Of a stretch of DNA of 64,000 nucleotides, positions 5,858 through 32,269 are shown one piece after another. The position numbers and the translations under genes are program-made. The first letter of the stretch is position 1. Every line of letters starts with the position of its first letter. This DNA comes from Firmicutes bacterium HGW-Firmicutes-7 (GTDB taxonomy: Bacteria; Bacillota; Clostridia; Lachnospirales; Vallitaleaceae): the NCBI GenBank assembly GCA_002841375.1, contig PGZO01000004.1, forward strand, positions 1 through 64,000, read 5' to 3'. The notes beneath the pieces are model-generated. The model had not been told where the DNA came from, searched no databases, and worked only from the letters and a program-made list of their open reading frames with translations.

Positions 5858-5880
5858 TATAATTTGCTTCCTTTCGTCAT

Positions 5881-8217: not shown

Positions 8218-8249
8218 TGCTTTCACCTCAACAAATATAGAATGTATTT

Positions 8250-8276
8250 CAAGGCATGTTGATCTAACATGCCTTG
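8250..8276 (-). other. Perfect intergenic hairpin within the corrinoid operon
   Basis: An 11-bp perfect inverted repeat (CAAGGCATGTT / AACATGCCTTG) with a 5-nt loop lies in the 114-bp spacer between the MtaA-like gene and the activator gene. There is no clear U-tract on the minus strand, so RNA processing or stabilisation, or partial attenuation, is more likely than full termination. Confidence 0.7.
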
Positions 8277-8331
8277 ATTAAAAGAATAAGAACGATTTTA
8301 AATTAAAGGATTGAAATATCCAGTTAACTTA

Positions 8332-9690: not shown

Positions 9691-9700
9691 AGTAGGCCTC

Positions 9701-10330: not shown

Positions 10331-10369
10331 GGTTGGTTCCTCCTAGAAAGTTTTTGCATAATCGTTTCA

Positions 10370-11656
10370 CTAAATATTGTGCGCTTCTTCTTGCGCAATC
10401 GCACACCATCGAATAACGTTATTTGGGTTATTTGCTAGCGTATGATTGTCCTTCATGATGTACTCAGTTCGGCAATGTTTGCTGATTTGCATATCTTCTT
10501 TTAAAGATTTGCGAATATAATCTTCATTAAGGTGAGGGGTTGCTAGGTAGCTTGGGTTCATCTTTCTTGAATAAATGTACTGATCTTGTAGGTATTCAAC
10601 CATTTTATTTGGATTTGCCCAAGGAGAAACGCTAACTCTTCGTAATCTAGGAATTTTTTTGATATATTCCCACCTAGGATCAATTGCTTCACAGCATCCA
10701 TAACAATTTAAACCAAATCGTTCTAATACTTTTATTTGATAGGGTAAAATAAACTTCTGTACCATTGAGGGGGATACTTCACTTGTCATTTGGCTTTCTG
10801 AAAATCCCCACATATCCATCATTGTAATATGATTAGGATCAAAGTTTTTGCTTGGTAATTCGTTAGAATAACCGAGACCACCTGAGGCAATATATGTACC
10901 ATCATTGTTCAAGCTTAATAATCCTTCTTTTTCAAGGTACTCAAGTCGATGAATAAACCCATCCGTTAAAAATTGACTAAGCCGATGCAATTCATCGGGG
11001 TTATCGTACATATCTAACATCATTTCAGTCATTCCTCTTAGTTCACCCAATACATCTGTTGAACAAGTACTCCACCACCAGACCGATTTTTTTTGTAGGT
11101 TAAAAATATCTCCAAAAGTACTTTTTGCAGCTTCATACAAGCGATTAGTTCTATCGTGATCAACTGTAATAGTAGGAAATTTCAGCTTAGAAAAGTCTTC
11201 TTTATAATTTTTTAATGGAGAACAGTGTTTAAATGCGCCACCATTTTTACCCCCTTCTTTAGGGACTTCAAGTCCCCAGCCTGATTCATTAAAGATTATG
11301 GGCACATTAAAGATGGTTTCTATAGGCTTATCATCTCCCATTGAATCGCCCCAGAATATTTCTCTTCTTAGAAGAAACTCCCATTTACGAGCTAATTCCC
11401 CTTTGCAGATGAGTTGATCGTTTGTAATAATTTCATGCCAACCATTTTCAGGGTCACAAAGAATAAGTGGCTTTGTAGCTTGGAGTGAATTGTGCTTATA
11501 CCAAAGTTCCTTTTTGGTTACTTGTTCTGGTCTCATTGCAATGTCTACGATTTGATTAGATAGTTCTCTAAGAATGTAACGATCGTCTTCCGATACATTA
11601 AAATCTTTAATTGAATGATAATAGTCACGTATTGTTTCAGCAGCCTTTTCAAACAT
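10370..11656 (-). CDS. UroD-family substrate:corrinoid methyltransferase (candidate methyltransferase I)
   Basis: A 428-residue protein of the uroporphyrinogen-decarboxylase superfamily, which includes O-demethylase methyltransferase I components of acetogens and desulfitobacteria. Recognisable parts are the long N-terminal region, a WGDSMGDDKPIET segment (102-114), a WWWSTCSTDVLGE segment (193-205), and CYGCCEAIDPRW (318-329). The closely spaced Cys318, Cys321 and Cys322 lie where UroD-type methyltransferases hold zinc. It is first in the operon with a consensus promoter behind it. As the only component without a generic role, it should define the methyl donor. The neighbouring inositol locus suggests a methoxylated cyclitol, but vanillate-like aryl ethers or other methyl donors remain possible. 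Confidence 0.72.
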   Translation of the reverse strand: MFEKAAETIRDYYHSIKDFNVSEDDRYILRELSNQIVDIAMRPEQVTKKELWYKHNSLQATKPLILCDPENGWHEIITNDQLICKGELARKWEFLLRREIFWGDSMGDDKPIETIFNVPIIFNESGWGLEVPKEGGKNGGAFKHCSPLKNYKEDFSKLKFPTITVDHDRTNRLYEAAKSTFGDIFNLQKKSVWWWSTCSTDVLGELRGMTEMMLDMYDNPDELHRLSQFLTDGFIHRLEYLEKEGLLSLNNDGTYIASGGLGYSNELPSKNFDPNHITMMDMWGFSESQMTSEVSPSMVQKFILPYQIKVLERFGLNCYGCCEAIDPRWEYIKKIPRLRRVSVSPWANPNKMVEYLQDQYIYSRKMNPSYLATPHLNEDYIRKSLKEDMQISKHCRTEYIMKDNHTLANNPNNVIRWCAIAQEEAHNI

Positions 11657-14301: not shown

Positions 14302-15315
14302 ATGAAAAAAATTAAAGTTGGTGCAATAGGATTAGGTAGATTAGGTTATCAACACGCAGAGAATTTAGCTTTTAAGCTACCTGACGCAGAATTAATAGCA
14401 ATATGTGATGCAAATGAAACAAAATTAAACGAAGTTGCAAGTGCATGGGGAATTCCTTATGCGTATACAAATTATGATGATATGATTGCCAACAAAGAAC
14501 TTGATGCAGTAGTCATTACATCCCCTTCACATTTGCATACAGTACAGATTGCTAAAGCTTTAGAGGCAGGACTTCATGTGTTTTCTGAAAAACCCCTTGG
14601 AACTTCTGTTGAAGAGTGTAAGATTGCAGAAGAAGCAGTAGAGAAATATCCAAATCTTGTATTTATGTTAGGCTTTATGAGAAGATATGATCCTTCCTAT
14701 GTATATGCTAAAGAAAAGATTAAGAATGGTGAAATTGGTAAACCAATACTTTTTAGAGGGTATAGTCAAGATCCTGAGAGTTGTATCGCTGGCGCAATTG
14801 CTTATGCTGGACATAGCGGTGGTCAATTTATCGATATGGCTGTTCATGATATTGATCTTGCTAGATGGTTTTTAGAGTCAGAACCTAAAAGTATATTTGC
14901 AATAGGTGGGTGCTATGCACATCCAGAATTCGGACAATTTAAAGATGGTGATAATGTTTCAGCATTAATGCAATTTGAGAATGATTCAATGGCTTTTATT
15001 TTTGCTGGAAGAACGGCTCCTCATGGATACAATGTTGAAACAGAGATTATTGGAACAAAGGGTACGTTAAGAATTGCAAGTGTACCTGAAAAGAACCTTG
15101 TTGAGATACTTGATGAATATGGTGTTAGAAAAGAGTGTTCTCAAGACTTTTTAGAAAGATTTGGTGCAGCATATGTTGCTGAAATCAATGAGTTTATTGA
15201 TTGTATTAAGACAGGTAGAAAGCCAGAAGTAACAGTATATGACGGTACAAAGACAACAGAAATTGCTTATAAATGTAAAGAAGCTTTTGAAACGAATGAA
15301 TTGATTCGCTTATAG
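14302..15315 (+). CDS. iolG: Inositol 2-dehydrogenase (Gfo/Idh/MocA family)
   Basis: A 337-residue NAD-dependent dehydrogenase that would oxidise myo-inositol to 2-keto-myo-inositol, the first step of the pathway. The Rossmann motif GAIGLGRLGY is near residue 8, the signature SEKPLG near 96, and MLGFMRRYDPSY near 122. DMAVHDIDLARW (near 178) carries the expected catalytic Asp and His. GGAGGAAAG precedes the ATG. The LacI palindrome upstream is shared with the neighbouring regulator. A second iolG lies at 25568. The two copies are under different operators, so they may serve different inositol isomers or conditions. Confidence 0.88.
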   Translation: MKKIKVGAIGLGRLGYQHAENLAFKLPDAELIAICDANETKLNEVASAWGIPYAYTNYDDMIANKELDAVVITSPSHLHTVQIAKALEAGLHVFSEKPLGTSVEECKIAEEAVEKYPNLVFMLGFMRRYDPSYVYAKEKIKNGEIGKPILFRGYSQDPESCIAGAIAYAGHSGGQFIDMAVHDIDLARWFLESEPKSIFAIGGCYAHPEFGQFKDGDNVSALMQFENDSMAFIFAGRTAPHGYNVETEIIGTKGTLRIASVPEKNLVEILDEYGVRKECSQDFLERFGAAYVAEINEFIDCIKTGRKPEVTVYDGTKTTEIAYKCKEAFETNELIRL

Positions 15316-15388: not shown

Positions 15389-16144
15389 TTAGCAAATAAT
15401 TTGAATATTATTTGTTTTACAATATTCAATATACTTTCTTGGTGGTGCAAGATCTGTTATGATTCCTGTTGCCGCAGACAATTTTGCAAAAGTCATTAAT
15501 GAAACAATGCCCCATTTAGTGTGATCAGCCATTACATAAACAGATTTGCTTTTGTTTATAGCCACCTTTTTTATTGCTGTTTCAAGTGGTAATGAGTTTG
15601 AGAAACCTGCTTCAATTGATATACCTGTTGCAGCGATAAACGATTTTGATATATTTAATGAGGAGAGTGTGTTAACGGCCAAGTCACCTGTAAAAGACTT
15701 TGTAATTCTTGAAAGTTCCCCGCCTACAGATATAATATTTATATTTGAACAATCTACGCACTCGTTGATAAGATTTAGATTATTGGTAACAATAGTAATG
15801 CTCTTATCCTTGATATAATGGGATATTTGAAGCGTAGTTGTACCAGAATCAACATAAATGGTTTCACCGTCACGAATATATGTTGAAGCCATTTTTCCGA
15901 TATGAATTTTTTCATCGTGAAAATTAATTTCTCTTTGCATAAAAGGAACGGTTGAGGTTTGATTGCTTTTATTTATTGCAACGCCACCATAGACTTTTCT
16001 AATGTTCCCCATTTTTTCTAAGATATTAATATCTCTACGTAATGTTGTTTTTGAGATTTCAAAAACATCACATAGATGGTCTAAGGAGCATAATTCATGT
16101 TCACTAATGTAGTTTTCAATATATTTAATTCGTTCTTCCTTCAT
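15389..16144 (-). CDS. DeoR-family regulator (IolR-like)
   Basis: A 251-residue DeoR-family repressor. The N-terminal winged-helix motif (LDHLCDVFEISKTTLRRDINILEKMGNIRKVYGG) spans residues 19-54. The C-terminal sugar-phosphate-sensing domain shows YVDSGTTTLQI near 98 and MADHTKWG near 210, as in DeoR and IolR proteins. Bacillus IolR has the same size and responds to 2-deoxy-5-keto-gluconate 6-phosphate. It is divergent from the iolC operon across a 240-bp region with four 10-bp tandem repeats that could be its binding site. Only family membership is certain. Confidence 0.85.
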   Translation of the reverse strand: MKEERIKYIENYISEHELCSLDHLCDVFEISKTTLRRDINILEKMGNIRKVYGGVAINKSNQTSTVPFMQREINFHDEKIHIGKMASTYIRDGETIYVDSGTTTLQISHYIKDKSITIVTNNLNLINECVDCSNINIISVGGELSRITKSFTGDLAVNTLSSLNISKSFIAATGISIEAGFSNSLPLETAIKKVAINKSKSVYVMADHTKWGIVSLMTFAKLSAATGIITDLAPPRKYIEYCKTNNIQIIC

Positions 16145-16384: not shown

Positions 16385-17380
16385 ATGAACAATTTGGTTT
16401 TCCAAGAAAACAGATCTATTGATTTAATCCCTATCGGTAGGTTAGCAGTAGATTTAAACGCAAATGAAATAAACACACCAATGGAAGAGACGCTGAGCTT
16501 TTCAAAATACCTTGGAGGATCACCGGCAAACATAGCAGTCGCAGTTGCTAAGTTAGGTAAAAAGGCTGGCTTCATCGGAAGAGTAGCAGACGATCAGTTC
16601 GGTAGATTTATAGTCAATTATTTAAATAAGATAAATGTAGATACAACAGGTATCGTAACTGACAAATCTGGTGCAAAAACAGGATTAGCATTTACGGAGA
16701 TTAAATCCCCATCTGATTGTAGCATTTTAATGTATCGTGAAAATGCAGTTGATTTCAAATTAGAAGTTGGAGATGTTAGAGAAGAATACATTAAGTCTGC
16801 AAAAGCAATTTTGATTTCTGGTACTGCATTAGCGGCTAGCCCTTCTCGTGAAGCAGTATTTGCTGCAATAGAATTGGCTAGAAAAAACAATACAGTTATT
16901 TTCTTTGATATTGATTATAGACCGTATACTTGGAAATCTGTTGAAGAAACTGCAATTTATTACAGTTTAGTAGCTGAAAAATGTGATGTGATTATTGGTA
17001 CCAGAGAAGAATTTGACATGATGGAAATGATTACAAATCGAGGCAACACAGACGATGCCGTAACAGCTAAAAAATGGTTTGATTATAATGCTAAAATCGT
17101 TGTTATAAAACATGGAAAAGAAGGCTCATATGCATATACTAAAGATGGTGAAAAAGTCACAGGAGCTGTATTTCCTGTTACACCAGTTAAAACATTTGGT
17201 GCAGGAGATTCCTATGCAGGTGGATTTATTTATGGATTACTTCAAGGTTACTCTCCTGAGAAATCAATGGAAATTGGTGCAGGTTCAGCAGCGATCGTAG
17301 TTCAAAGCCATAGTTGTTCAGATGCAATGCCTACAATTGATCAAATTAATAACTTTATTAAAAATTACAATAAGAATTAA
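16385..17380 (+). CDS. iolC: 5-dehydro-2-deoxygluconokinase IolC
   Basis: A 331-residue PfkB-family sugar kinase. The N-terminal ribokinase-type signature (KYLGGSPANIAVAVAKLG) is near residues 40-57. The ATP and anion-hole motif FGAGDSYAGGF is near 271, with the catalytic Asp. It phosphorylates 2-deoxy-5-keto-gluconate, the product of IolB, just before the aldolase step. It is first in a four-gene operon with the aldehyde dehydrogenase, iolJ and a carboxyltransferase, 18 bp before the next start. AAAGGAG precedes the ATG. Assignment to IolC over other PfkB kinases rests on length, the PIGRLAVDLN start and context. Confidence 0.92.
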   Translation: MNNLVFQENRSIDLIPIGRLAVDLNANEINTPMEETLSFSKYLGGSPANIAVAVAKLGKKAGFIGRVADDQFGRFIVNYLNKINVDTTGIVTDKSGAKTGLAFTEIKSPSDCSILMYRENAVDFKLEVGDVREEYIKSAKAILISGTALAASPSREAVFAAIELARKNNTVIFFDIDYRPYTWKSVEETAIYYSLVAEKCDVIIGTREEFDMMEMITNRGNTDDAVTAKKWFDYNAKIVVIKHGKEGSYAYTKDGEKVTGAVFPVTPVKTFGAGDSYAGGFIYGLLQGYSPEKSMEIGAGSAAIVVQSHSCSDAMPTIDQINNFIKNYNKN

Positions 17381-17398
17381 ATTTTGGAGGACTATATT

Positions 17399-18784
17399 AT
17401 GTCAGAAGCAAAAATAGTAATTAGTGAACTAATAGAACGTGCAAAAAAAGCCCAAGCAATTGCTGAAGGGTATACGCAAGAACGAGTTGATGAACTTGTT
17501 GCAGCAATCGCTTGGTCAGTTGCCAACGAAGAAACTGCTAAAGTTATTGCACAAATGGCAGTTGATGAATCTCAACTTGGAAATTACCAAGGAAAATTTG
17601 TTAAAATTACTAAAAAGGTACGTGGTGCCCTTAGAGATATGAAGGATTGTAAATCTGTAGGCGTTATTGAAAGAGATGAAGCAAAAGGTTTAATTAAATT
17701 TGCAAAACCTGTTGGTATTATTGGTGCATTGGTGCCAACAACAAATCCAGAAGCAACACCTGTTATTAAGGGGATGAATGCAATTAAAGGACGTAATGCT
17801 ATTATTTTTGCGCCACATCCAAGATCTAAAAAAACAAATACTTTTATTGTCAATACTATGAGAGCTACACTTAAAAAATATGGTGCACCAGAGGATCTAT
17901 TAATTGCTATCGAAGAACCAACAATTGACTTGAGTAATGAGCTTATGAAGCAAGTAGACCTTGTTGTAGCAACAGGTGGTTCAGGGATGGTTAAGGCAGC
18001 TTATTCTTCAGGTACACCTGCATATGGAGTTGGTGCTGGAAACGCAGTTATTATTGTTGATGAAACAGCAGACTTAGACGATGCTGCACACAAAATTATG
18101 TTAAGCAAAACTTTTGATTATGCAACAAGCTGTTCAGCGGAAAATTCATTAGTAGTTGTAGAAAGTGTCTATGATCAACTAATTGAAAAGCTTCAAGCAG
18201 AAGGTGGCTATTTAACAAATAAAGATGAAAAAGCAAAATTACAAACAACAATGTGGGATGATGAAGGACATTTAAGTAGATTTATTGTTGCACAGCCTGC
18301 AGCTAAAATTGCTGAACTTGCATCATTTGAAATTCCTGAAAGCAAAAGCTTTATTATGGTAGAGGAAAGTGGCGTAGGCGCTGAGCATCCATTCTCAGGA
18401 GAAAAAATGTCTGTAGTTATGAGTTTATATAAAGTAAAAGACTTTTCCGAAGCAGTGGATCAAGTGAATACAATCACTGGATACCAAGGAACCGGTCACT
18501 CATGTGGGATTCATACGACTAAACTAGAAAGAATTGAAGAACTTGGTAATAGAGTTAAAGTAAGCCGTATTATGGTTAGACAATCACAATGTTATGGAAA
18601 TAGTGGTAACTGGGATAATGGTATGCCATTTACGTTAACACTTGGTTGTGGTACTTGGGGTGGGAATATCGCCTCAGAAAATATTACATGGAAACATTTC
18701 ATCAATGTGACATGGGCTTCTACACCAATTGAACCAGTGATTCCATCGGATGAGGAATTATTTGGATCAGCAATGCATAACTAA
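17399..18784 (+). CDS. CoA-acylating aldehyde dehydrogenase, SauS/AdhE-like (proposed malonate-semialdehyde dehydrogenase)
   Basis: A 461-residue aldehyde dehydrogenase of the CoA-acylating group (sulfoacetaldehyde dehydrogenase SauS, AdhE N-terminal part, EutE). The N-terminal GALVPTTNPEATPVIK is near residue 105, and the catalytic cysteine lies in ATSCSAENSLV (near 240). The GNSGNWDNGMPFTLTLGCG segment near 400 is also typical. It is not the 480-490-residue methylmalonate-semialdehyde dehydrogenase type of IolA, whose cysteine motif is GQRCMA. Its place between iolC and iolJ makes malonate semialdehyde the likely substrate and malonyl-CoA the likely product, an inference strengthened by the carboxyltransferase downstream. 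I chose the ATG at 17399, seven bases after GGAGG; an upstream in-frame TTG overlaps that site. Confidence 0.82.
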   Translation: MSEAKIVISELIERAKKAQAIAEGYTQERVDELVAAIAWSVANEETAKVIAQMAVDESQLGNYQGKFVKITKKVRGALRDMKDCKSVGVIERDEAKGLIKFAKPVGIIGALVPTTNPEATPVIKGMNAIKGRNAIIFAPHPRSKKTNTFIVNTMRATLKKYGAPEDLLIAIEEPTIDLSNELMKQVDLVVATGGSGMVKAAYSSGTPAYGVGAGNAVIIVDETADLDDAAHKIMLSKTFDYATSCSAENSLVVVESVYDQLIEKLQAEGGYLTNKDEKAKLQTTMWDDEGHLSRFIVAQPAAKIAELASFEIPESKSFIMVEESGVGAEHPFSGEKMSVVMSLYKVKDFSEAVDQVNTITGYQGTGHSCGIHTTKLERIEELGNRVKVSRIMVRQSQCYGNSGNWDNGMPFTLTLGCGTWGGNIASENITWKHFINVTWASTPIEPVIPSDEELFGSAMHN

Positions 18785-18800
18785 TCAAAGGAGAAACCAG

Positions 18801-19631
18801 ATGTTAGTAACATTAAAAGAAATGTGTACGGAAGCAGCAAGTACGAATAAGGTTGTTCCTAGCTTTAATGTTTTCGGATACGAAGACGCAAAGGTGATTA
18901 TTGAAGTAGCAGAGGAATTAAATGCGCCTGTTATTCTTATGTCGAATAAAGATGCAGTTGCACATATGGATTTAAAATATTCAGCAAGTCTATATAGAAG
19001 CATGGCACTAGAAACAAAGGTACCTGTATGTATTCACCTTGATCACGGTCAAGATTTTGAGTTGTGTGCAAAAGCCATCCAAGCAGGATATACATCGGTA
19101 ATGTATGATGGATCACAACTACCGCTTGAAGAGAATATGAAAAATACCATTGAAATTGTAAAAATGGCTCATGCATGTGGTATATCTGTTGAGGCCGAAA
19201 TTGGATCAGTTGGGTACAGCGATCCTAATATCAAGGCCAAAAGGATTTATACTGAACCTGAGGAAGCAAAATTATTTGCAGAAAAAACAGGCGTTGATGC
19301 ACTTGCTGTTGCAGTGGGAACGTTACATAGAATGACTGAGCAAGCAGCGGTGTTGCAATATGATAGATTAGAAGCAATTCAAAATATAACTTCAATACCA
19401 CTGGTGATTCATGGATCTACTGGTTTGACAGATGAGGATCTTGTGAAGCTTACTGCGTATAGTATTGGTAAAATAAATTTAGGCACGGCACTTCGTATGA
19501 CTTTTGGCAATACCTTAAGAGATGAAATGAATGCCAACCCAAAAGAATTTGATCGAATTAAATTCTTTAAACAACCTATGATTGAAGTTAAAAAAGTTGT
19601 AAAAGAAAAATACCAGTTATTGGGTTGGTAG
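18801..19631 (+). CDS. iolJ: Class II aldolase IolJ (6-phospho-5-dehydro-2-deoxy-D-gluconate aldolase)
   Basis: A 276-residue class II fructose-bisphosphate-aldolase-family protein. Zinc and catalytic elements include HLDHGQD (near 79), MYDGSQLPLEEN (near 100), and VIHGSTGL (near 203). IolJ splits the phosphorylated deoxyketogluconate into dihydroxyacetone phosphate and malonate semialdehyde. Its position between iolC and the acyl-CoA-forming genes favours IolJ over glycolytic aldolase. The start is the ATG at 18801 behind AAAGGAG, 16 bp after the previous stop. Confidence 0.9.
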   Translation: MLVTLKEMCTEAASTNKVVPSFNVFGYEDAKVIIEVAEELNAPVILMSNKDAVAHMDLKYSASLYRSMALETKVPVCIHLDHGQDFELCAKAIQAGYTSVMYDGSQLPLEENMKNTIEIVKMAHACGISVEAEIGSVGYSDPNIKAKRIYTEPEEAKLFAEKTGVDALAVAVGTLHRMTEQAAVLQYDRLEAIQNITSIPLVIHGSTGLTDEDLVKLTAYSIGKINLGTALRMTFGNTLRDEMNANPKEFDRIKFFKQPMIEVKKVVKEKYQLLGW

Positions 19632-19660
19632 GGAAAAATCTACATATGGAGGAAAAAAAG

Positions 19661-21214
19661 GTGTCTGATATGCTTAAAAAGATTGAAGAACTTTATGAAA
19701 AAAAAGAACGCATCTCCCAAGGTGGTGTAATAGAAAAGATTAAGCAACAACATGCAGCAGGAAAAATGACAGCTAGAGAACGTATTACAATGCTATTAGA
19801 ACCTGATTCATTTGTAGAGGTTGGTGCATTCAGAGTTCATAAATCAAGGGATTTTGGAATGGATAAAGTGGAGGCACCCTCCGATGGAGTTGTAACAGGT
19901 TATGGTAGTATTTTGGGGACACTTGTTTTTGTATATGCCCAAGATTTTACTGTTTTAGGTGGTTCCTTGGGAGAAGTTCATGCAGATAAGATATGTACCA
20001 TTATGGACATGGCATTAAAAATGGGTGCACCTATTATTGGAATAAATGACTCAGGTGGTGCAAGAGTACAGGAAGGTATTGATGCATTAAGTGGTTTTGG
20101 TAATATTTTTTATCGTAACACGCTGGCATCAGGTGTAATACCTCAAATATCAGTTATTATGGGTCCTTGTGCAGGCGGTGCAGTTTATTCACCAGCAATT
20201 ACAGATTTTGTTTTTATGGTTGATCATACAAGCCAAATGTTTATAACAGGGCCAGAAGTAATAAAAACAGTAACGAACGAAGAAATCTCTAAAGAAGCAT
20301 TAGGTGGAGCAAGTGTACATGCGAGTAAAAGTGGTGTTGTGCATTTTAGATATCCGAATGAAGAAAGCTGTTTGCAGGCAATTCGCCAGCTCATTCAGTT
20401 TTTACCACCTAATAATAAAGACGATGCTATGATAGTTGCTTTAAATGATGATCCCAATAGACAATCCTCTTACTTAACAGAAATTCTACCTGACTCAGCC
20501 AATAAGGGTTATGATATGAAAGCGATTATTTCTGAGATAATTGACCAAGGTACGTTTATTGAAGTTCATAAGGATTATGCGCCAAATATAATCGTTGGTT
20601 TTGCTAAAATGAATAGTGATACGGTAGGAATTGTTGCAAATCAGCCAAAGGTTTTAGCAGGATCGTTAGATGTAAATGCCTCTGACAAAGCTGCAAGATT
20701 TATTCGGTTTTGTGATTGCTTTAATATACCGATATTAACTTTAACGGATGTTCCAGGATATTTTCCAGGAGTTGCTCAAGAGCACCAAGGTATTATAAGA
20801 CATGGCGCAAAATTATTGTATGCGTATGCAGAAGCAACAGTACCAAAGATTAATGTTATATTAAGAAAAGCTTATGGTGGGGCATATATTGCAATGAGTA
20901 GTAAACATTTAGGTGCTGATCTAGTACTTGCATGGCCTACAGCAGAGATTGCAGTTATGGGACCTCAAGGCGCTGCAAATATAATTTTTAGAAAAGAAAT
21001 TAATAATGCAGAAAATCCAGAAGAAATGCGTGCTCAGAAAATTAAAGAATATCAAGAGAACTTTTCCAATCCATATGTGGCGGCAGAAAGAGGTTATGTA
21101 GATAATGTTATTGAGCCTGCTATGACTAGACCATATATTATATCTGCTCTTGAAGCACTTAAAAGCAAGCACGAAGTACGTCCAAAGAAAAAGCATGGGA
21201 ATATTCCCTTATAA
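19661..21214 (+). CDS. Acyl-CoA carboxyltransferase (methylmalonyl-CoA decarboxylase alpha / propionyl-CoA carboxylase beta type)
   Basis: A 517-residue carboxyltransferase of the biotin-dependent family (MmdA, PccB, transcarboxylase 12S). The N-terminal crotonase-like half contains GGSLGEVHADK (near 106), INDSGGARVQEG (near 129) and GPCAGGAVYSPA (near 169). The C-terminal half shows PGYFPGVAQEHQGI and RKAYGGAYIAMSSK with ADLVLAWPTAEIAVMGPQGA. Length matches stand-alone MmdA. It is last in the iolC operon and followed by a strong terminator. Such subunits move carboxyl groups between malonyl- or methylmalonyl-CoA and biotin. No biotin carrier, membrane subunit or biotin carboxylase is in the window. 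I prefer GTG at 19661, eight bases after GGAGG; ATG at 19646 or 19670 is possible. Confidence 0.85.
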   Translation: MSDMLKKIEELYEKKERISQGGVIEKIKQQHAAGKMTARERITMLLEPDSFVEVGAFRVHKSRDFGMDKVEAPSDGVVTGYGSILGTLVFVYAQDFTVLGGSLGEVHADKICTIMDMALKMGAPIIGINDSGGARVQEGIDALSGFGNIFYRNTLASGVIPQISVIMGPCAGGAVYSPAITDFVFMVDHTSQMFITGPEVIKTVTNEEISKEALGGASVHASKSGVVHFRYPNEESCLQAIRQLIQFLPPNNKDDAMIVALNDDPNRQSSYLTEILPDSANKGYDMKAIISEIIDQGTFIEVHKDYAPNIIVGFAKMNSDTVGIVANQPKVLAGSLDVNASDKAARFIRFCDCFNIPILTLTDVPGYFPGVAQEHQGIIRHGAKLLYAYAEATVPKINVILRKAYGGAYIAMSSKHLGADLVLAWPTAEIAVMGPQGAANIIFRKEINNAENPEEMRAQKIKEYQENFSNPYVAAERGYVDNVIEPAMTRPYIISALEALKSKHEVRPKKKHGNIPL

Positions 21215-21216: not shown

Positions 21217-21308
21217 GCCAATTTCATTACCCTCCTATATAATATAAATGTTTGTATTGAGCAGTGTTGTTAAAGTACAACACTGCTTAATTCAATCTAA
21301 CCATTCAT
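21217..21308 (+). terminator. Terminator at the end of the iolC operon, duplicated at 32302-32390
   Basis: The perfect stem GCAGTGTTGT (21261-21270) / ACAACACTGC (21277-21286) has TTGA/TTAA extensions. About 90 bp around it, starting GCCAATTTCATT, is clearly similar to the region after iolE. Confidence 0.82.
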
Positions 21309-21372: not shown

Positions 21373-21425
21373 TTGACAATGGAAATGAATTGCAATATAA
21401 TTCTAGTATATCGTGCCCGAGCACG
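21373..21425 (+). promoter_or_regulatory. Promoter and LacI-type operator of iolHBD
   Basis: TTGACA (21373-21378) and TATAAT (21396-21401) are separated by 17 bp. The near-perfect palindrome CGTGCCCGAGCACG (21412-21425) covers the start site. It differs by one base from the operator at 25474-25487. AATTGCAATA (21388-21397) overlaps the -10 box. Confidence 0.88.
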
Positions 21426-21483: not shown

Positions 21484-22344
21484 ATGAAAATAGCATTTGA
21501 TCCAGACGTAATTAGAAACACATCAATAACCAACATGGTACATAAAATTTCGGAGATGGGTTTTGAATATATTGAACAATCACCCCATCCTCAAATTTTA
21601 CCTTTTTATAAGCATCCGAAGGCGAGCAAGGAAATTATTAAAGAATATAAAGAAGCACTAAAAGAAACAGGTGTTAAAATCTCTTCCTTGATACCAATTT
21701 ATAATTGGTCAGGTCCAGAAGAAGCTCGTCGACAAGCAGCAGTTAAAAATTGGAAGAGAGCTATAGAAATTGCAGTTGAATTAGATGTTAATGTAATGAA
21801 TACAGAACTTGCAGGAGATCCACTTCAACCAGTAATTTGTGAAGAAATGTTTTATAGATCCATGGAAGAGCTTTTGCCGATATTTGAACGTGAAGGAATC
21901 CGTCTTGATATTCAATCCCATCCTTATGATTTTTGTGAAAATGGGAACGAGACAGTTGATATTGTTAAGTCTTTTCGTAGTGATTATGTAAAATACCTGT
22001 ACTGTGCGGCACATACATTCTTTTATGATGATGGAGTAGGTGATGTTGCAAGCATGCTAGACTATGCTGGGGATGATCTTTCCCATGTCATTATTGCGGA
22101 TACTTTAAATCAAACAAAATCTTGTCGTTATATTGTTAATCCTCCGGGCGTGAATGCTACGGTACATCAACATGTTGGACTTGGCGAAGGAGATGTTAAC
22201 TTCGAAGCCTTCTTTAAAAAATTACGCGAGATGAAATTTGCTGAAAAAGACACCATTGCTTCTGTATCTTTATTTGGTTTTCCAGAAAAGATTGGCTATC
22301 AAGCGCCAGAGATTCTCGAAAGAATTAAAAAAGAATTGCACTAG
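21484..22344 (+). CDS. iolH: IolH, inositol-locus sugar-phosphate isomerase/epimerase-like protein
   Basis: A 286-residue TIM-barrel protein of the AP-endonuclease-2 (xylose-isomerase-like) superfamily. The start (MKIAFDPDVIRNTSITNMV), IEQSPHPQILPFYKHPKASKE and the NWKRAIEIAVELDVNVMNTEL region closely follow Bacillus IolH as I recall it. Its length matches that protein (about 289 residues). The biochemical role of IolH is not firmly established. It is first in an operon with iolB and iolD behind a strong promoter and a palindromic operator. AAGGAGG precedes the ATG. Confidence 0.9.
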   Translation: MKIAFDPDVIRNTSITNMVHKISEMGFEYIEQSPHPQILPFYKHPKASKEIIKEYKEALKETGVKISSLIPIYNWSGPEEARRQAAVKNWKRAIEIAVELDVNVMNTELAGDPLQPVICEEMFYRSMEELLPIFEREGIRLDIQSHPYDFCENGNETVDIVKSFRSDYVKYLYCAAHTFFYDDGVGDVASMLDYAGDDLSHVIIADTLNQTKSCRYIVNPPGVNATVHQHVGLGEGDVNFEAFFKKLREMKFAEKDTIASVSLFGFPEKIGYQAPEILERIKKELH

Positions 22345-22404: not shown

Positions 22405-23199
22405 ATGGTAATTAAACAAAGTGAACCGTATAAGTACGGATATAATCCTATTACAGAATTAGAAGGTTATCATGCAGATATGCAGATGGATGTTGGCATT
22501 ATTAAAATTTCCGGAGATGATAATTACTCGAATTCTGAAGCAAAAGAGAGAGCAATTCTTCTTATTGAAGGGGAGGTTACTTTCAAGTGGGAATCCAATG
22601 AGGTAACGGTCGTAAGGAATAGCTGTTTTGATGAAAACCCAGTGTGCCTACATTTACCTAAAGATGTTAAAGTTACAATTGAAGGTAGAAGAGAATCTGA
22701 ATTATGTTACCAGGCTGTATATAATGATAAAGTGTTTGAATCAAAGTTATTTACACAGGAAATGGGTGTAAGTGATGTATTTGGTAAAGATACGTTAGGT
22801 AATACCTCAATAAGAACAGTTAGAACGGTCATTGATGACGATATCGCTCCATATTCTAATCTAGTTATTGGGGAAGTTATCAATCATCCAGGAAAATGGT
22901 CATCCTACCCTCCACATCACCATGTTCAACCAGAAGTGTATCATTACCGTTTCTTGCCAGAACAAGGTTTTGGCGTTAGTATCGTTGGTGATGAAGCACA
23001 GAAAATAGAAAATAGAAGTACGACTTGTGTAACAAGTAGTTTAGTACATCCACAATGTAGTGCACCAGGATATGCAATGTATTATATATGGATGATACCC
23101 CATATTAAAGAAAAAAGATGGTTAAAAGATAGAACTTTTGAAACACAACATGAATGGTTGCTGGATCCGGATGCTAAAATATGGTCGATAAATAGTTAG
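22405..23199 (+). CDS. iolB: 5-deoxy-glucuronate isomerase IolB
   Basis: A 264-residue bicupin isomerase converting 5-deoxy-D-glucuronate to 2-deoxy-5-keto-D-gluconate. The C-terminal cupin carries the metal motif SYPPHHHVQPEVYHYRF at about residues 168-184, with histidines and glutamate in the usual spacing. The ending with AMYYIWMIPH and a Trp-rich tail is typical. AAGGAGG precedes the ATG; iolD follows after 12 bp. Confidence 0.95.
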   Translation: MVIKQSEPYKYGYNPITELEGYHADMQMDVGIIKISGDDNYSNSEAKERAILLIEGEVTFKWESNEVTVVRNSCFDENPVCLHLPKDVKVTIEGRRESELCYQAVYNDKVFESKLFTQEMGVSDVFGKDTLGNTSIRTVRTVIDDDIAPYSNLVIGEVINHPGKWSSYPPHHHVQPEVYHYRFLPEQGFGVSIVGDEAQKIENRSTTCVTSSLVHPQCSAPGYAMYYIWMIPHIKEKRWLKDRTFETQHEWLLDPDAKIWSINS

Positions 23200-23211: not shown

Positions 23212-25146
23212 ATGGAAACAATTCGTTTAACAATGGCACAAGCATTAATTAAGTTCCTAGATCAACAATACGTAGAATTTGATGGTGTAGAGCAAAAATT
23301 TGTAAAAGGTGTTTTTACTATTTTTGGTCATGGAAATGTAGTAGGTCTTGGACAGGCCCTTGAAGAATATGAAGGTGATTTAGTAATGTACCAAGGACGA
23401 AGCGAACAAGGTATGGCGCATGCTGCTATTGGTTTTGCAAAGCAAAGTCATAGAAAACAAATTATTGCTTGTAGCTCCTCCGTAGGGCCAGGTTCGGCAA
23501 ATATGGTAACGGCTGCAGCAACTGCCACTGCAAATAGAATACCTTTATTACTATTACCAGGAGATGTTTTTGCATCACGTCAGCCAGATCCCGTTTTACA
23601 ACAACTTGAGCAATTTAATAGCTTAAGCATTTCAACGAACGATGCTTTTAAAGCTGTGAGTAAATACTGGGATAGAGTACAAAGACCAGAACAATTAATG
23701 ACAGCAATGATTCATGCAATGCGAGTACTAACAGATCCAGCAGATACAGGTGCTGTAACCGTTGCATTACCGCAAGATGTACAAGGTGAAGCGTATGACT
23801 ATCCAGTTCATTTTTTCAAGAAACGTATTCACAGAATTGATAGAAGACCCGTGACTGCTTCAAGGATTAATGACGCAGTGGAGGTAATTAAGAATAAGAA
23901 GAAACCAATTTTAATTTGTGGTGGTGGTGTTCGATATGCTGAAGCACAAGAAGCATTTAAAGCCTTTGCTGAAAAATTTAATATTCCATTTGGAGAAACC
24001 CAAGCAGGTAAAAGTGCCATCGTATTTGACCATGAATTTAATTTAGGTGGTGTTGGTACGACAGGAAATTTAGCAGCGAATATTATTGCACACGAGGCAG
24101 ATTTAGTTATTGGTGTTGGCACAAGGTACACGGACTTTACAACTGCATCAAAATGGATTTTTAGAAATCCAGAAGTAGAATATGTTAACATCAATGTGGC
24201 AAGTTTTGATGCATATAAAATGGACGGAGTGCAAGTCGTAGGGGATGCTAAGGTTGCACTTGAAGCCTTGGCAGAAGCCCTTGAAAAGATAAACTATCGT
24301 GCAGCGTATGTAGATGAAATTAAGGAAGCAAAAGATAAATGGGCAACGGAATTAGACCGATTATTTCATATACAATATACACCAGATAAATTTGTCCCAG
24401 AAGTTGCAGGTGATCTTGACGAAGCAATTCCAGAATATATAGAAGTACTTGGCTCAAGTATGACACAAACGAGAGTGCTTGGAATTTTAGATGAATTCTT
24501 AGAAGATGATGCAATTGTTGTAGGTGCAGCAGGAAGCTTGCCAGGTGATTTGCAACGTGTATGGTGTCCAAAGGTACCAAACACTTACCATTTAGAATAT
24601 GGCTATTCCTGTATGGGCTATGAAATCAATGCTTCATTGGGTGCAAAAATGGCGAAGCCAAAGCAACCAGTTTATGCAATGGTTGGAGATGGTTCTTATT
24701 TAATGCTTCACTCAGAACTTGTAACAGCAATACAAGAAGGAATTAAAATCAATGTTCTATTATTTGATAATAATGAGTTTGGATGTATTAACAACCTTCA
24801 AATGGAACAAGGTATGGGAAGCTATGGAACAGAGATGAGAAGTAGAAACCCTAAAACAGGCTTATTAGATGGACCATTGGTACCGATTAATTTTGCAATG
24901 AGCGCAGCAGCTTATGGTTGTAAAACCTATACAGCAAAAACAGAAGAAGAGCTCATTCATGCAATAGAAGATGCGAAGAAACAGACAGTATCAACGCTCA
25001 TTGATATCAAAGTGCTACCAAAGACGATGACAAATGGATATGAAAGCTGGTGGCGCGTTGGAACAGCACAAGTAGCTAAAAGTGAAAGTGTATTAGAAGC
25101 AGTTAAAGTATTAAATAAACACATTAGTGAAGCACGTCGGTATTAA
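23212..25146 (+). CDS. iolD: 3D-(3,5/4)-trihydroxycyclohexane-1,2-dione hydrolase IolD
   Basis: A 644-residue thiamine-diphosphate enzyme that opens the cyclitol ring to 5-deoxyglucuronate. The catalytic glutamate lies in [17 protein letters not shown] (near residue 67). The central NAD/FAD-like domain starts near 215. The ThDP-binding motif [13 protein letters not shown] with following [13 protein letters not shown] is near 490-525. The characteristic IolD tail with [15 protein letters not shown] is present. It is third in the iolH-iolB-iolD unit, which ends in a strong terminator. TAGGAGG precedes the ATG. Confidence 0.96.
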
Positions 25147-25434: not shown

Positions 25435-26575
<1,141 letters not shown>

Positions 26576-26731: not shown

Positions 26732-27715
26732 ATGAATTTAAGAAGAATTGTATCATTAGTATTAGTTGTTTTGATGATTATCGGGGTATCGGTAGGATGT
26801 AGTACTGATAAAAAAGCAGTAGACTCAAATGAATCTGGTCCTAGCCCTACAACTAAAAATGAAACGAAAAAGATTGGTGTTGCAATTGCAGACTTTAGCG
26901 ACCAATTTCAAGTGTACTTAATGGAAGGTATGAAGGATGCTGCCGCAAATTTAGATGGTATTGAGGTCGTTTATGTGGATGCAAAATATGATGCAAACAA
27001 GCAAATGGCACAAGTTGAGAACTTCATCGCACAAGAAATGGATGCAATTGTTTTAATGGCTGTTGATACAGAAGCGTCTGTACCAATGGTTAAAGCAATT
27101 AAAGATGCAGGAATTCCACTTATTAGTGTAAACAGAAAACTACAAAATCAAGAACTTGCAGTGTCATATGTAGGTTCAGACAGTTACATATCAGGTAGAC
27201 TTGAAATGGAAGCTGTAGGTGAAGCTATGGGTGGTCAAGGTAATATTGCAATCCTTATGGGTAGCTTTGGACATGAACCAGCGATTCTTAGAACACAAGG
27301 ATATAAAGATGTTATTGCTGAAAAATATCCAGATATTAAAGTAGTAGCAGAAGAAACAGGCGATTGGTATAGAGATAAAGGTATGGAAATAGCTGAGAAC
27401 TGGTTACAATCAAACTTAGTAATAAATGCAATAGTAGCGAACAACGATGAAATGGCACTAGGTGCTATTAAAGCTGCAGAAGATGCTGGTGTAAGAGATA
27501 AATTAATCATCGCAGGTATCGATGCAACACCAGAGGCACTTGAATACTTAAAAGCTGGAAGATTAGACTTTACAGTATTCCAAGACGCTAAAGGACAAGG
27601 GGGCGGATCCATTGAAGTCGCTGCAAAAGTAGCAAAAGGTGAAACAGTAGATGAATTATACGATATTCCTTATGTACTTGTTAGACCAGAAGATGTGGAT
27701 AAATATTTAAAATAA
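26732..27715 (+). CDS. Sugar ABC transporter substrate-binding lipoprotein (probable inositol binder)
   Basis: A 327-residue type-1 periplasmic-binding protein (RbsB-like). The signal peptide at residues 1-22 ends in the lipobox SVGC with C23 as the lipidated cysteine. A Ser/Thr/Asn/Lys-rich linker follows, then the two-domain binding fold from KKIGVAIADFSDQF. Its position between iolG and the cognate ATPase and permease, in a unit with iolI and iolE, makes inositol the likely ligand; other cyclitols are possible. AAGGAGG precedes the ATG. Confidence 0.9.
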   Translation: MNLRRIVSLVLVVLMIIGVSVGCSTDKKAVDSNESGPSPTTKNETKKIGVAIADFSDQFQVYLMEGMKDAAANLDGIEVVYVDAKYDANKQMAQVENFIAQEMDAIVLMAVDTEASVPMVKAIKDAGIPLISVNRKLQNQELAVSYVGSDSYISGRLEMEAVGEAMGGQGNIAILMGSFGHEPAILRTQGYKDVIAEKYPDIKVVAEETGDWYRDKGMEIAENWLQSNLVINAIVANNDEMALGAIKAAEDAGVRDKLIIAGIDATPEALEYLKAGRLDFTVFQDAKGQGGGSIEVAAKVAKGETVDELYDIPYVLVRPEDVDKYLK

Positions 27716-27748
27716 GGTTTATGTTATTTAGTACTTAGTTTATCTGAA

Positions 27749-27783
27749 GTTGCAAGTGTACCCTATGCGGTACATCTTGCAAC
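27749..27783 (+). other. Stable hairpin between binding-protein and ATPase genes
   Basis: GTTGCAAG-t-GTACC / GGTAC-at-CTTGCAAC with a 6-nt loop and no U-tract. An analogous hairpin occupies the same position in the second ABC operon (46168-46195). Confidence 0.75.
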
Positions 27784-27860
27784 AGAAGATACGTGATCAT
27801 ATTAAAATAAAGGATGATCTAAATGATTAATTCATCCAGATTATGAAAGGATTGACTTCT

Positions 27861-29354
27861 ATGACTAGTGAATTCATACTTGAAATGAGTCAAATATCCA
27901 AAACATTTCCAGGAGTTAAAGCGCTGCAAGAGGTTCAGCTTAACGTAAGAAAAGGGACAGTCCATTCTTTGATGGGTGAAAATGGAGCTGGAAAATCTAC
28001 CTTAATGAAAATATTAATCGGAATTCATCCTGCTGATTCTGGTGGTCAAATATTATTTAAAGGTAATCCAGTTACCATACATTCTACAAATGATGCACTT
28101 GGTATGGGCATTTCAATGATTCATCAAGAATTAAGCCCTGTGCCTTTTATGACTATTTCTGAAAACATATTTTTAGGACGTGAGTCTACCTATGGAAAAA
28201 GTTTTTGGGTAAATGATAAAGAGATGAATCAAAGAACAGAGGAATTGTTAAATCAGTTGGAAATTTCACTGGATCCCAAAATGCTTATGAAGGATTTAAG
28301 TATTGCTAATACACAAATGGTAGAAATTGCGAAAGCTATTTCTTATAATTCTGAACTGATAATAATGGATGAGCCAACATCGGCAATTACTGAAAAAGAA
28401 GTAAAACATTTGTTTAAAATAATTAGAGGTTTAAAAGATAAAGGCGTATCAATCATCTATATTTCTCACAAAATGGATGAAATATTTAAAATATCTGATG
28501 ATATTACAATATTTCGAGACGGTCAATATATTGGAACAAAACATGTAGATGAACTTGATACAAATAAACTGATCTCAATGATGGTAGGTCGTGAACTAAA
28601 GGAAATGTTTCCAAAAGAACATGCTGAAATTGGTGATATATTATTAGAGGCCAAAAACTTAAGCAGAAAAGGATTTTTTTCTAATATCAGTTTTAATGTT
28701 AGAAAAGGAGAAATATTAGGATTTGCAGGATTAATGGGTGCAGGACGTACAGAAGTTATGGAAAGTATCTTTGGTATTACTAAGCTTGATGAAGGTGAAA
28801 TTTTTATTCACGGTAATAAAGTAAATATTAGACATCCAAAAGATGCGATTGGGCATAAGATGGCGTTATTAACAGAAGATAGAAAGTTAACAGGATGTTT
28901 CCTTCCTCTTTCAGTACGAGATAATATTGCAATTGCAAGTATGGATAAATATACTACAAGTGGATTTATAAATCCAAAGAAAATAAATACAGAATGTGCA
29001 GAGGCTAGTATAAAGCTTAATGTTAAAACACCAAGTATGGAGCAATTAATAAAGAATTTAAGTGGTGGTAATCAACAAAAGGTATTGGTAGCAAGGTGGC
29101 TTCAGACAGATCCCGAAATTTTAATTGTTGATGAACCGACGAGAGGAATTGATGTTGGGGCAAAGGCAGAGATTCACAGATTATTATGTCAACTAGCAAA
29201 GGCAGGAAAGGCCGTTATCATGATTTCTTCAGAGCTTCCTGAAGTATTAGGAATGAGTGATAGAGTCGTTGTTATGCATAATGGTAAAATTACCGGAGAA
29301 GTAAAACGTGATGAAGCAACACAAGAAAGAGTAATGGAATTAGCTATTGGTTAA
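27861..29354 (+). CDS. Sugar ABC transporter ATP-binding protein (RbsA/MglA type)
   Basis: A 497-residue protein with two fused ABC domains. The first has Walker [10 protein letters not shown] near residue 38 and Walker [12 protein letters not shown] near 168. The second has a degenerate P-loop region GLMGAGRTE (near 288), signature [10 protein letters not shown] (near 400) and [11 protein letters not shown]. This layout is typical of ribose/galactose/inositol-class importers. I chose ATG 27861 with AAAGGA nine bases upstream; ATG 27843 would add six residues. Confidence 0.93.
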
Positions 29355-29390
29355 TAGCATAACTAATATTTTTGAGAGGAAGCGAAAAGT

Positions 29391-30368
29391 ATGAAATCAG
29401 AAAGTATAGTTGAGAAAAAAAACAATGAACAGTTTAAGGCAATGCTAAACATTTTCATGAAAAAATATGCTATATTGCTAATTTTTATTGTTATGGTCAT
29501 CATATTGTCGATTTTATCTCCGGCATTTTTAAGACCTAGAAATATCATGAATGTCTTTAGACAAATTTCTATTATAGCAGTTATTGCAATGGGCGTTACC
29601 TTTATCATTATCACGGGAGGAATTGACCTGTCATCTGGATCTGTAGTAGCTTTGGTTGCAGTTGTAGCAGCTAGCTTAGCTCATCCTAATCAATTTCCAC
29701 TAATTTTTGCTATTATTGGAGGTATGTTAGTTGGAGCTTTAACAGGATGTATTTCAGGGACAATTGTTACAAAACAAAAAATACCGGCGTTTATAGCCAC
29801 ATTAGGTATGATGATTGTGGCAAGAGGTGCGGCATTAATTTATAGTGATGGGAGACCTATTACGAACTTTACTCCATCCTTTGATTTTATTAGTGGTGGA
29901 TATATATTTGGAATTCCAACACCAATTTATATTTTAGCCTTGGTTACGGTAGTAAGTCATATTTTATTAAAACATACTAAATTTGGGAAATATGTTTATG
30001 CGATAGGTGGAAATTCAAATGCGGCACTTGTATCAGGTATCAATTCAACAAGAGTCGTTATTATGGTTTATACATATGCAGGATTATTAACTGGATTAGC
30101 AGGTGTAATGCTTGCATCTCGACTCAGTGCAGGTCAACCAACAGCTGGGGTTGGATATGAATTAGATGCTATTGCAGCTGCAACAATTGGTGGTGTAAGC
30201 CATTCAGGTGGTATTGGAACGATATTTGGAACAATTGTTGGTGCACTGATTATTGGTGTTTTGAATAATGGATTAGACTTACTTAATGTATCAGCTTATT
30301 GGCAACAAATTATCAAGGGTGTAATAATCGTTGGTGCAGTAATAATGGATAAAAGGAAAAACCGTTAG
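29391..30368 (+). CDS. Sugar ABC transporter permease (RbsC type)
   Basis: A 325-residue polytopic membrane protein of the RbsC/XylH permease family, with eight to ten hydrophobic segments beginning near residue 24. Conserved stretches are [15 protein letters not shown] (near 79) and [15 protein letters not shown] (near 204), the latter in the cytoplasmic loop contacting the ATPase. It completes the transporter encoded with iolG, iolI and iolE. GAGGAAG precedes the ATG. Confidence 0.93.
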
Positions 30369-31369: not shown

Positions 31370-32269
31370 ATGTTAGATGCAAAGAAAGTAAGACTAGGTA
31401 TAGCGCCAATTGCTTGGACAAATGATGACATGCCAGAGCTTGGAAAAGAAAATACCTTTGAACAATGTATTAGTGAAATGGCACTTGCTGGTTTTACAGG
31501 CAGTGAAGTCGGTTGTAAATATCCAACAGATCCAACGGTATTAAAGAAAGCGATAGGCTTAAGAGGCATCCAAATCTGTAATGCATGGTTCTCAACTTTA
31601 TTTACCTCTGAACCAGAGGAAGTAACGATTGAAAACTTTATCAAACATAGAGATTTCTTACACGCAGTAGGTGCTAGAATGATTGGTTGCTCTGAACAAG
31701 GGAATAGTATTCAAGGTACAACAAAAGCAGTATTTGATGAAAAACCAGTGTATACAGAAGAAGAATGGCTTAAAGTAACAAAGGGTATGAATAAGTTGGC
31801 AGATCTTGCAGCAGAAAAAGGTATGAAGTTATCCTACCATCATCATATGGGTACTGGCATTCAAACACCAGAAGAAATTGATAAATTCATGGAAATGACA
31901 GCGGATAATGTTTACTTATTATTTGACTCAGGTCATTTAGCATATTCAGAAGGTAACGTTGAAGCAGCTTATGACGTATTAGAAAAACATATAGCTCGAA
32001 CAGCGCATGTTCATTTAAAAGACATTCGCAAGGACGTTGTTGATAAAGTCAAGACAGAAAAAAGAAGTTTCCTTGAAGGGGTTAGACTAGGCGCTTTCAC
32101 AATTCCAGGAGACGGTGTTATTGATTTTACACCTATTTTCAATATTTTAGAAAAGGCGAAATATGAAGGCTGGATGGTAGTTGAAGCAGAACAAGATCCT
32201 GCCGTGGCAAATCCATTTGAATATGCACTGAAAGCAAGAGCATATATCAGAGATAAAAGCGGACTCTAA
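31370..32269 (+). CDS. iolE: Inosose dehydratase IolE
   Basis: A 299-residue sugar-phosphate-isomerase-fold dehydratase that converts 2-keto-myo-inositol into the trihydroxycyclohexanedione used by IolD. Typical segments are [17 protein letters not shown] (near 9), [28 protein letters not shown] (near 161) and [13 protein letters not shown], with metal ligands among these His, Asp and Glu residues. It is last in the 25.5-32.3 kb unit and followed by the duplicated terminator. AAAGGATGA precedes the ATG. Confidence 0.95.

Follow-up and report, generated by a model that had tools for sequence, protein, structure and literature searches.

The inositol (iol) operon of Firmicutes bacterium HGW-Firmicutes-7 (genome G000; 4.08 Mb in 89 contigs, 99.18% complete) carries a gene for a coenzyme A (CoA)-acylating aldehyde dehydrogenase (ALDH) between iolC and iolJ, followed after iolJ by a gene for an MmdA-type carboxyltransferase (CT), all on the + strand. 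The operon lies in the window studied here, the 64,000-nucleotide stretch at positions 1-64000 of contig PGZO01000004.1 (C35). Comparison with related genomes suggests that these two enzymes probably take malonate semialdehyde to malonyl-CoA and then to acetyl-CoA, with biotin accepting the carboxyl group, the release of which exports Na+. IolJ would release malonate semialdehyde, and the ALDH, using NAD(P)+ and CoA, would oxidize it to malonyl-CoA; unlike in the IolA reaction, the carboxylate would be retained. The CT would then transfer the carboxyl group from malonyl-CoA to a biotin carrier, giving acetyl-CoA and carboxybiotin, and a membrane beta subunit would turn carboxybiotin and Na+ inside the cell into CO2 and Na+ outside. 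In this genome the carrier, delta, and beta subunits would be supplied by a single gene set on another contig, C17, which would accept a second alpha subunit. We infer both reactions, and the sharing of the C17 subunits with the iol CT, from gene content and context.

The initial annotation placed the four genes 16-29 bp apart and ending in one terminator. The spacing is confirmed, with gaps of 18 bp (iolC/ALDH), 16 bp (ALDH/iolJ), and 29 bp (iolJ/CT, taking the GTG at 19661 as the CT start; ATG 19646 and ATG 19670 are alternatives), and a GGAG-like ribosome site precedes each of the four starts. The terminator stands in part: a stable hairpin follows the CT gene (−23.4 kcal/mol over a 61-nt stretch, with 0 of 200 shuffles equally stable), but it is not among the terminator-scan results and its T-run is weak. 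The iolJ name rests on operon context, and the protein shares 57-70% identity with its counterparts in nine other ALDH-bearing iol operons. The route down to malonate semialdehyde and dihydroxyacetone phosphate (DHAP) can be read from the predicted genes of the window, and IolA is absent from it.

The ALDH contains the ATSCSAENS active site that had been noted, beginning at residue 242 and including Cys245, and aligns along most of its length with solved chains such as 6tqh and 8cei, which places it in the CoA-acylating AdhE/SucD/SauS superfamily. The solved chain closest to a profile of 18 ALDH relatives is an acetylating succinate-semialdehyde dehydrogenase (8cei, 467 bits), and in a single-sequence comparison AdhE (6tqh) is slightly ahead of it (338.5 vs 333.5). 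Acetylating succinate-semialdehyde dehydrogenase retains the substrate carboxylate in its acyl-CoA product. IolA/MmsA occupies the same position in the pathway and, by our proposal, acts on the same substrate, but the window ALDH belongs to a different family and is not matched by the IolA/MmsA model TIGR01722 at E 0.001. The CT has both glycine motifs expected of an alpha subunit (DSGGAR and AYGGAY), which we take to form the carboxyltransferase active site. Its assignment to the methylmalonyl-CoA decarboxylase type holds insofar as TIGR01117 (mmdA) is its best model, although its score of 854 bits misses the subfamily cut-off of 998.8; the closest solved chain is 1vrg (735.6 bits). Glutaconyl-CoA was considered as a substrate and rejected, since glutaconyl-CoA decarboxylase alpha subunits score 109.9 bits at best.

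Three lines of inquiry left by the initial annotation concerned a true iolA, pump subunits of the mmdB/C/D type, and the recurrence of the gene pair, and all three gave favourable answers, which supports the earlier interpretation. No protein of G000 passes the TIGR01722 cut-off of 448.5; the best, an ALDH on C75, reaches 286 bits, is nearest to betaine-aldehyde dehydrogenase, and was rejected as a distant iolA. Further PF00171 proteins of the genome are an EutE-type acetaldehyde dehydrogenase beside a BMC protein (C55), a PRK15398-type ALDH (C35:102736), and ProA (C30). The Na+-pump beta model PF03977 has a single match over its cut-off, in the C17 set, which is ordered CT-like alpha, delta (PF04277, 66.8 bits), biotin carrier, beta, and 5S-like subunit; this is the single complete Na+-decarboxylase set of the genome. 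The beta subunit (MmdB) keeps GGADGPT and N-x3-G-x4-S-x6-R, presumably the Na+ sites, and the carrier keeps AMKM, presumably the biotin site. The C17 alpha subunit shares 46% identity with the iol CT, and its counterparts of DSGGAR and AYGGAY read DSAGLR and AYGSAY; because this subunit is divergent and lacks the usual glycine motifs, we rejected it as the malonyl-CoA enzyme, and the iol CT is therefore not simply redundant. No protein of G000 matches methylmalonyl-CoA mutase (PF01642), which argues against the textbook substrate of the CT, and methylmalonyl-CoA was rejected as its substrate in this genome. The PF01039 proteins of G000 are the window CT, the C17 alpha, acetyl-CoA carboxylase among fatty-acid genes (C74), and an AccD-like protein (C8); AccC and AccD pass their models, and AccA and AccB were assigned by PF01039/PF00364 and by eye. 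On C8 (L008:205-9620), a 2,431-aa polyketide-synthase-like open reading frame (ORF) is followed by an iron alcohol-dehydrogenase-like gene and the second AccD-like protein, as judged by eye.

Relatives of the ALDH were surveyed at the best 80 of 327 loci, eight of which have no called ALDH frame and were not counted, leaving 72. Among all loci examined, that of the window included, thirteen iol operons carry this ALDH; the CT is present in six and the whole pump in one. Thus five related genomes beyond that of the window keep the ALDH and CT in an iol operon. Four of them (G013, G014, G015, and G423) share the order iolC-ALDH-iolJ-iolB-iolD-iolE-iolG-CT, with ALDHs 76-77% and CTs 74-75% identical to those of the window. 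The fifth, Vallitaleaceae bacterium (G012; contig JAOZKH010000087.1, L043 = L052), has iolD-iolE-iolG-ALDH-CT-delta-biotin carboxyl carrier protein (BCCP)-MmdB, with a delta protein that matches PF04277, so that a full four-subunit decarboxylase adjoins the ALDH. [Clostridium] ultunense, Acidaminobacter sp., and Schnuerera sp. also have the ALDH in iol operons. In [Clostridium] ultunense (L075:5499-11377), iolC-iolJ-iolB-ALDH is immediately preceded by transketolase halves, the first matching PF00456, and ABC transporter genes of the branched-chain type (named by eye) are also present; the transketolase halves may give another way into the iol pathway there. A transaldolase-like protein is encoded in or near iol operons of G103 (L141:4862-5941, PF00923), G200 (L143:4994-6070), and Acidaminobacter (L051:12776-13852), the latter two by eye. 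The gene after the iol ALDH in Acidaminobacter (L051:11531-12598) belongs to the ECH_2 family (PF16113), like the 3-hydroxyisobutyryl-CoA hydrolase of the valine operon described below.

Outside inositol operons, more distant relatives of the ALDH occur in uracil and valine contexts. In L055, an ALDH 65% identical to that of the window lies with a cytosine/uracil-type permease, PreA, dihydropyrimidinase, and an aminotransferase, and L147 (G130) has the same arrangement with a 63% identical ALDH. Reductive breakdown of uracil leads through beta-alanine to malonate semialdehyde. In L146 (G176), TRAP-transporter-like genes (by eye) are followed by ALDH (65%)-aminotransferase-CT-delta-BCCP-MmdB, and the aminotransferase is 74% identical to that of the L055 uracil cluster; from this context we infer beta-alanine as the substrate of both aminotransferases. 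At 26 of the 72 loci, with ALDHs 55-59% identical to the window's, a gene of the 3-hydroxyisobutyrate-dehydrogenase cluster lies three to five genes downstream of the ALDH. One such locus, L087, encodes an acyl-CoA dehydrogenase (no equivalog cut-off reached), enoyl-CoA hydratase, 3-hydroxyisobutyryl-CoA hydrolase, and 3-hydroxyisobutyrate dehydrogenase, a gene set that corresponds to the valine route to methylmalonate semialdehyde. Since malonate or methylmalonate semialdehyde is the intermediate expected in the uracil and valine contexts, the distribution of the ALDH supports malonate semialdehyde as its substrate in the window, as first claimed. A Treponema locus (L058:1378-13494) combines the ALDH with a CT of 57% identity, proteins with FAD-binding and CCG domains, and genes that look TRAP-transporter-like by eye, possibly marking another source of malonate semialdehyde.

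The most direct cases of the proposed Na+ export step are G012 and G176, the latter also offering a comparison within one genome. A second CT-BCCP-MmdB module in G176 adjoins methylmalonyl-CoA mutase, MeaB, and a glyoxalase-fold protein that we take for the epimerase. The two modules share 98.6% DNA identity over 3,853 bp, with BCCP and MmdB 100% and CT 97.3% identical, and it looks as if a methylmalonyl-CoA decarboxylase was duplicated into a putative malonate-semialdehyde operon. The duplicate is possibly an assembly error, but each copy is on a contig of its own and is flanked by different genes. According to an excerpt of PMC7835884, the choice of acyl-CoA is influenced by D422 in PccB of Streptomyces, or by I420 in the relative of PccB that uses acetyl-CoA. 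Residue 422 of 1xnw (by our count) directly follows GGAY and is Ile in 1xnw and Val in 3iav, both of which we take to be mutants at this position. The window CT has Ile410 there, and all four mutase-linked CTs have Leu. The ALDH-linked CT of G176 has Ile at the 410 position, together with Phe146 and His416, as in 9/9 iol (G012 excepted) and mutase-less CTs; L227, from a mutase-bearing genome, shows Ile410 only. The G176 twins differ at 14 residues, of which three (F146, I410, and H416) match the iol/mutase-less state; for three of 14 differences to fall with the matching residue in the 18 fixed columns has a chance of 0.010 counting all columns and 0.035 counting variable columns, both computed post hoc. 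The near-identical pair in two contexts is a natural test bed for malonyl- versus methylmalonyl-CoA specificity.

We compared 17 genomes containing the ALDH family with 14 control genomes. IolA (TIGR01722) is over its cut-off in none of the 17 and in five of the 14 controls, MmdB is over its cut-off in 17/17 (in G767 as contig-end pieces only) versus 2/14, and a CT at least 60% identical is found in every ALDH genome. Methylmalonyl-CoA mutase is matched in seven of the 17 and has no match in the other ten (G000, G012, G013, G014, G015, G423, G103, G131, G200, and G076). The CT, carrier, beta, and 5S genes stand at one site with similar neighbours in G103, G200, and G076, and the set is split over two contigs in G131. 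At the site matching the CT set of G103, G200, and G076, a divergent alpha subunit is present in G000, G012, G013, G015, and G423, each of which has its own CT in the iol operon. The ALDH itself is rare: at E 1e-175 it is found in at least 8 of 391 genomes of the class and at least 6 of 392 of the order (own genome included), which are lower bounds as at most four candidates were scored per genome.

Several observations weigh against the conversion of malonate semialdehyde through malonyl-CoA to acetyl-CoA with Na+ export. The window operon contains no carrier or pump genes, and the C17 set already has an alpha subunit of its own, the divergent one. The G012 iol CT (L043), which adjoins a complete pump, lacks the F146/I410/H416 signature of the other iol CTs. 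The L055 and L146 aminotransferases pass a model named only hypothetical protein, the 17 genomes were selected for having the ALDH, and G002, of the same genus as G000, has no match at E 1e-80. The remaining adverse points each favour a particular alternative. The 5S-like subunit that adjoins beta and carrier on C17, a relative of which comes last in the matching clusters of G012 (C10), G013, G015, G423, G103, G200, G076, and G131, means that the carboxyl group may pass to pyruvate; the CT would then work through the C17 carrier and 5S-like subunit as a transcarboxylase yielding acetyl-CoA and oxaloacetate. In G000 either fate may apply, but overall we consider transfer to pyruvate unlikely: the two dedicated-pump loci, L043 (whose contig stops 1.8 kb beyond MmdB) and L146, showed no 5S-like gene close to the ALDH, and the C17 gene, whose best model is the oxaloacetate decarboxylase alpha subunit (PRK12331, 773.6 bits, cut-off 718), may simply make its set an oxaloacetate decarboxylase. 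In seven of the 13 ALDH-bearing iol operons (L051, L053, L068, L070, L075, L141, and L143), no CT was seen in the fetched stretch, that of L053 (within L142) ending with its contig after iolJ, and the classical IolA/MmsA product is likewise a CoA thioester. The ALDH might thus act like IolA, giving acetyl-CoA and CO2 directly, and the CT might carboxylate acetyl-CoA or propionyl-CoA for some other purpose. Such an arrangement is quite improbable: ALDH-linked CTs fall in three separate placements of the CT tree (the window clade, G012, and G176), two of them with a decarboxylase pump, separate acetyl-CoA carboxylase genes lie beside fatty-acid genes, and there is no mutase match in G000 to use methylmalonyl-CoA.

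The best model for the ALDH is NF047625, the acylating sulfoacetaldehyde dehydrogenase SauS, whose cut-off of 600 it narrowly misses with 584.1 bits, and an iol-operon relative in L040 (ALDH 9422-10801) passes this cut-off by 7 bits (607). The window enzyme might on these scores be a sulfoacetaldehyde dehydrogenase of the SauS/SqwD type standing in an iol operon by chance. It lies between iolC and iolJ, however, and its kin recur in iol, uracil, and valine contexts. The sulfoacetaldehyde dehydrogenases SqwD and SauS work with an ADP-forming CoA ligase, according to an excerpt of PMC12890257, and the neighbours that we named around the window ALDH include no CoA ligase pair. Such a pair accompanies three relatives, ADP-forming as annotated in L238 and succinate-CoA-ligase-like in L044 and L045, which have a sulfo-transketolase arrangement (L044 also with a transketolase half). 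Against NF047625, L238 scores 810.7, four iol enzymes 578-607, three ALDHs in uracil/beta-alanine contexts 553-563, and one valine ALDH 484, yet L044 and L045 score 543.9 and 539.0, below the iol enzymes, so that by this measure only L238 is clearly separated from them. In the ALDH tree, all three ligase-linked enzymes fall outside a 39-row group (support 100/96) containing the 13 iol rows, nine valine rows, and three of the four beta-alanine-labelled rows, the placement of L238 being unsure because of its long branch. The context labels are ours, 14 rows are labelled other, and L237, for which no reading frame was called, was left out; L073, labelled beta-alanine only from an aminotransferase, is outside the group, and L057, labelled sulfo only from transketolase halves, is inside. 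Glu118, Asn357, and Tyr362 are constant in all 26 iol, beta-alanine-labelled, and valine rows and absent from all three ligase-linked enzymes, a comparison made post hoc. We regard a sulfoacetaldehyde dehydrogenase in the window as very improbable, and the name that NF047625 gives the L040 iol enzyme as a probable misannotation. Hardly plausible at all is a role of malonyl-CoA in feeding fatty-acid synthesis, with the CT merely balancing the pool: synthesis genes are present in the genome (named by eye), but dedicated pumps adjoin the ALDH in two loci, and flux from a growth substrate exceeds lipid need.

A wider generalization is possible, and we offer it tentatively: a malonyl-CoA-forming dehydrogenase and a Na+-translocating malonyl-CoA decarboxylase may be a recurrent module of anaerobes, placed more than once behind inositol and uracil/beta-alanine pathways, with kin of the ALDH in the place of MmsA in marine proteobacterial valine operons and with CTs that exchanged methylmalonyl-CoA for malonyl-CoA through a small number of changes. 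Each enzyme type is already known, and what is new, in the literature searched, is their proposed combination as the end of an inositol or beta-alanine pathway. The premise that all known inositol pathways end in IolA was too wide, since in Anaerostipes the conversion of myo-inositol to propionate uses a 3-oxoacid CoA-transferase, OxcT (PMC8355322), and in Mitsuokella an induced 3-oxopropionate reductase forms 3-hydroxypropionate (PMC7618129), according to excerpts of both papers. The Anaerostipes pathway, as excerpted, likewise breaks inositol down anaerobically without IolA, but its CoA-transferase activates 3-oxopropionate for subsequent reduction, whereas here we propose oxidation to malonyl-CoA and decarboxylation. 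Among the matches listed in a search of titles and abstract beginnings of the open-licence literature, none describes malonate semialdehyde conversion to malonyl-CoA in inositol catabolism or connects a malonyl-CoA decarboxylase that pumps Na+ with the breakdown of inositol or beta-alanine. Decarboxylation of a malonyl thioester is coupled to Na+ by the MadB-type malonate decarboxylase of Malonomonas, which uses malonyl-ACP; the model for its beta subunit (TIGR03136, cut-off 596.9) gives far lower scores with the C17 beta (184.8 bits) and the L043 beta (156.2 bits).

The Na+-translocating methylmalonyl-CoA decarboxylase MmdABCD of Veillonella and Propionigenium (excerpt of PMC8473912) resembles the proposed system in its mmdA-subfamily CT and in the delta, carrier, and beta genes beside the ALDH in G012 and G176. 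It differs in that the substrate proposed here is malonyl-CoA from malonate semialdehyde, in that G000 has no mutase match, and in that the CT is the only one of these subunits encoded in the window operon. SauS/SqwD is the closest named enzyme family to the ALDH (excerpt of PMC12890257), and the substrates differ in carboxylate versus sulfonate; the window ALDH is set apart in gene context, clade, score (584 vs 810.7), and the residues Glu118, Asn357, and Tyr362. The oxaloacetate decarboxylase of K. pneumoniae moves up to 2 Na+ per decarboxylation, as given in the excerpt of PMC8473912. If our proposal is true, a Na+-motive step missing from the classical schemes is added to the fermentation of inositol and beta-alanine, and the decarboxylation energy wasted by IolA becomes extra energy conservation, stored as a sodium gradient. 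The proposal would also give a function to a scattered ALDH family that in NCBIfam is matched best by the sulfoacetaldehyde dehydrogenase model, and sulfonate-metabolism calls based on scores barely above the SauS cut-off would need correction.

The predicted iol region of the window extends on both sides of the four genes (Table 1). Neither promoter-like (30 vs 31.2) nor terminator-like (4 vs 3.5) sequences are enriched over shuffles in the region, so of these signals we rely on just the perfect promoter-like match and the hairpin assessed by its own folding, and no Rfam family is matched within the window at gathering scores.

Table 1. Predicted iol genes and signals of the window, with the evidence for each
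Feature	Position	Strand	Evidence
second iolG-like dehydrogenase, upstream	14302..15315	+	relatives: 83% beside G423 iol operon, 80% in G015
DeoR-type regulator, IolR-like by position, divergent from iolC	15389..16144	-	ORF; 42% relative divergent from iolC in Acidaminobacter L051
iolC, 5-dehydro-2-deoxygluconokinase	16385..17380	+	TIGR04382 416.6 bits, cut-off 300
CoA-acylating ALDH, proposed malonate-semialdehyde dehydrogenase (malonyl-CoA forming)	17399..18784	+	NF047625 584.1 bits, cut-off 600
iolJ, class II aldolase giving DHAP + malonate semialdehyde	18801..19631	+	class II aldolase models; below all listed equivalog cut-offs
MmdA/PccB-type CT, proposed malonyl-CoA:biotin carboxyltransferase	19661..21214	+	TIGR01117 854 bits, cut-off 998.8; PF01039 655 bits
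hairpin 3' of iolC-ALDH-iolJ-CT	21256..21291	+	folding vs shuffles, z -7.5
promoter-like TTGACA-17-TATAAT before next iol operon	21373..21401	+	12/12 matches
xylose-isomerase-like TIM-barrel protein, perhaps inosose isomerase	21484..22344	+	PF01261; 67% relative near iol operon of G103 (L141)
iolB-like 5-deoxyglucuronate isomerase	22405..23199	+	TIGR04378 84.1 bits, below cut-off 205
iolD	23212..25146	+	TIGR04377 963.9 bits, cut-off 715
iolG, myo/D-chiro-inositol dehydrogenase	25565..26575	+	NF052679 571 bits, cut-off 540
ABC sugar transporter: binding protein, ATPase, permease	26732..30368	+	named by eye; relatives beside other iol operons
iolE, inosose dehydratase	31370..32269	+	TIGR04379 404.4 bits, cut-off 290

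Just upstream of the iol genes, on the - strand (4940-11656), is a corrinoid methyltransferase set that includes an RACo-type activator with a 2Fe-2S domain, a URO-D methyltransferase with a thioredoxin-like tail, a corrinoid protein, and a CobW GTPase, as well as a 428-aa protein that is URO-D-methyltransferase-like by eye and has no Pfam match at E 0.001. Our guess is that this set could demethylate O-methyl inositols and so supply the iol operon. Near the far end of the window (57145-63490) is a nitrogenase cluster, with NifH (PF00142), two PII-like proteins, and NifD/K- and NifE-like ORFs recognized by eye.

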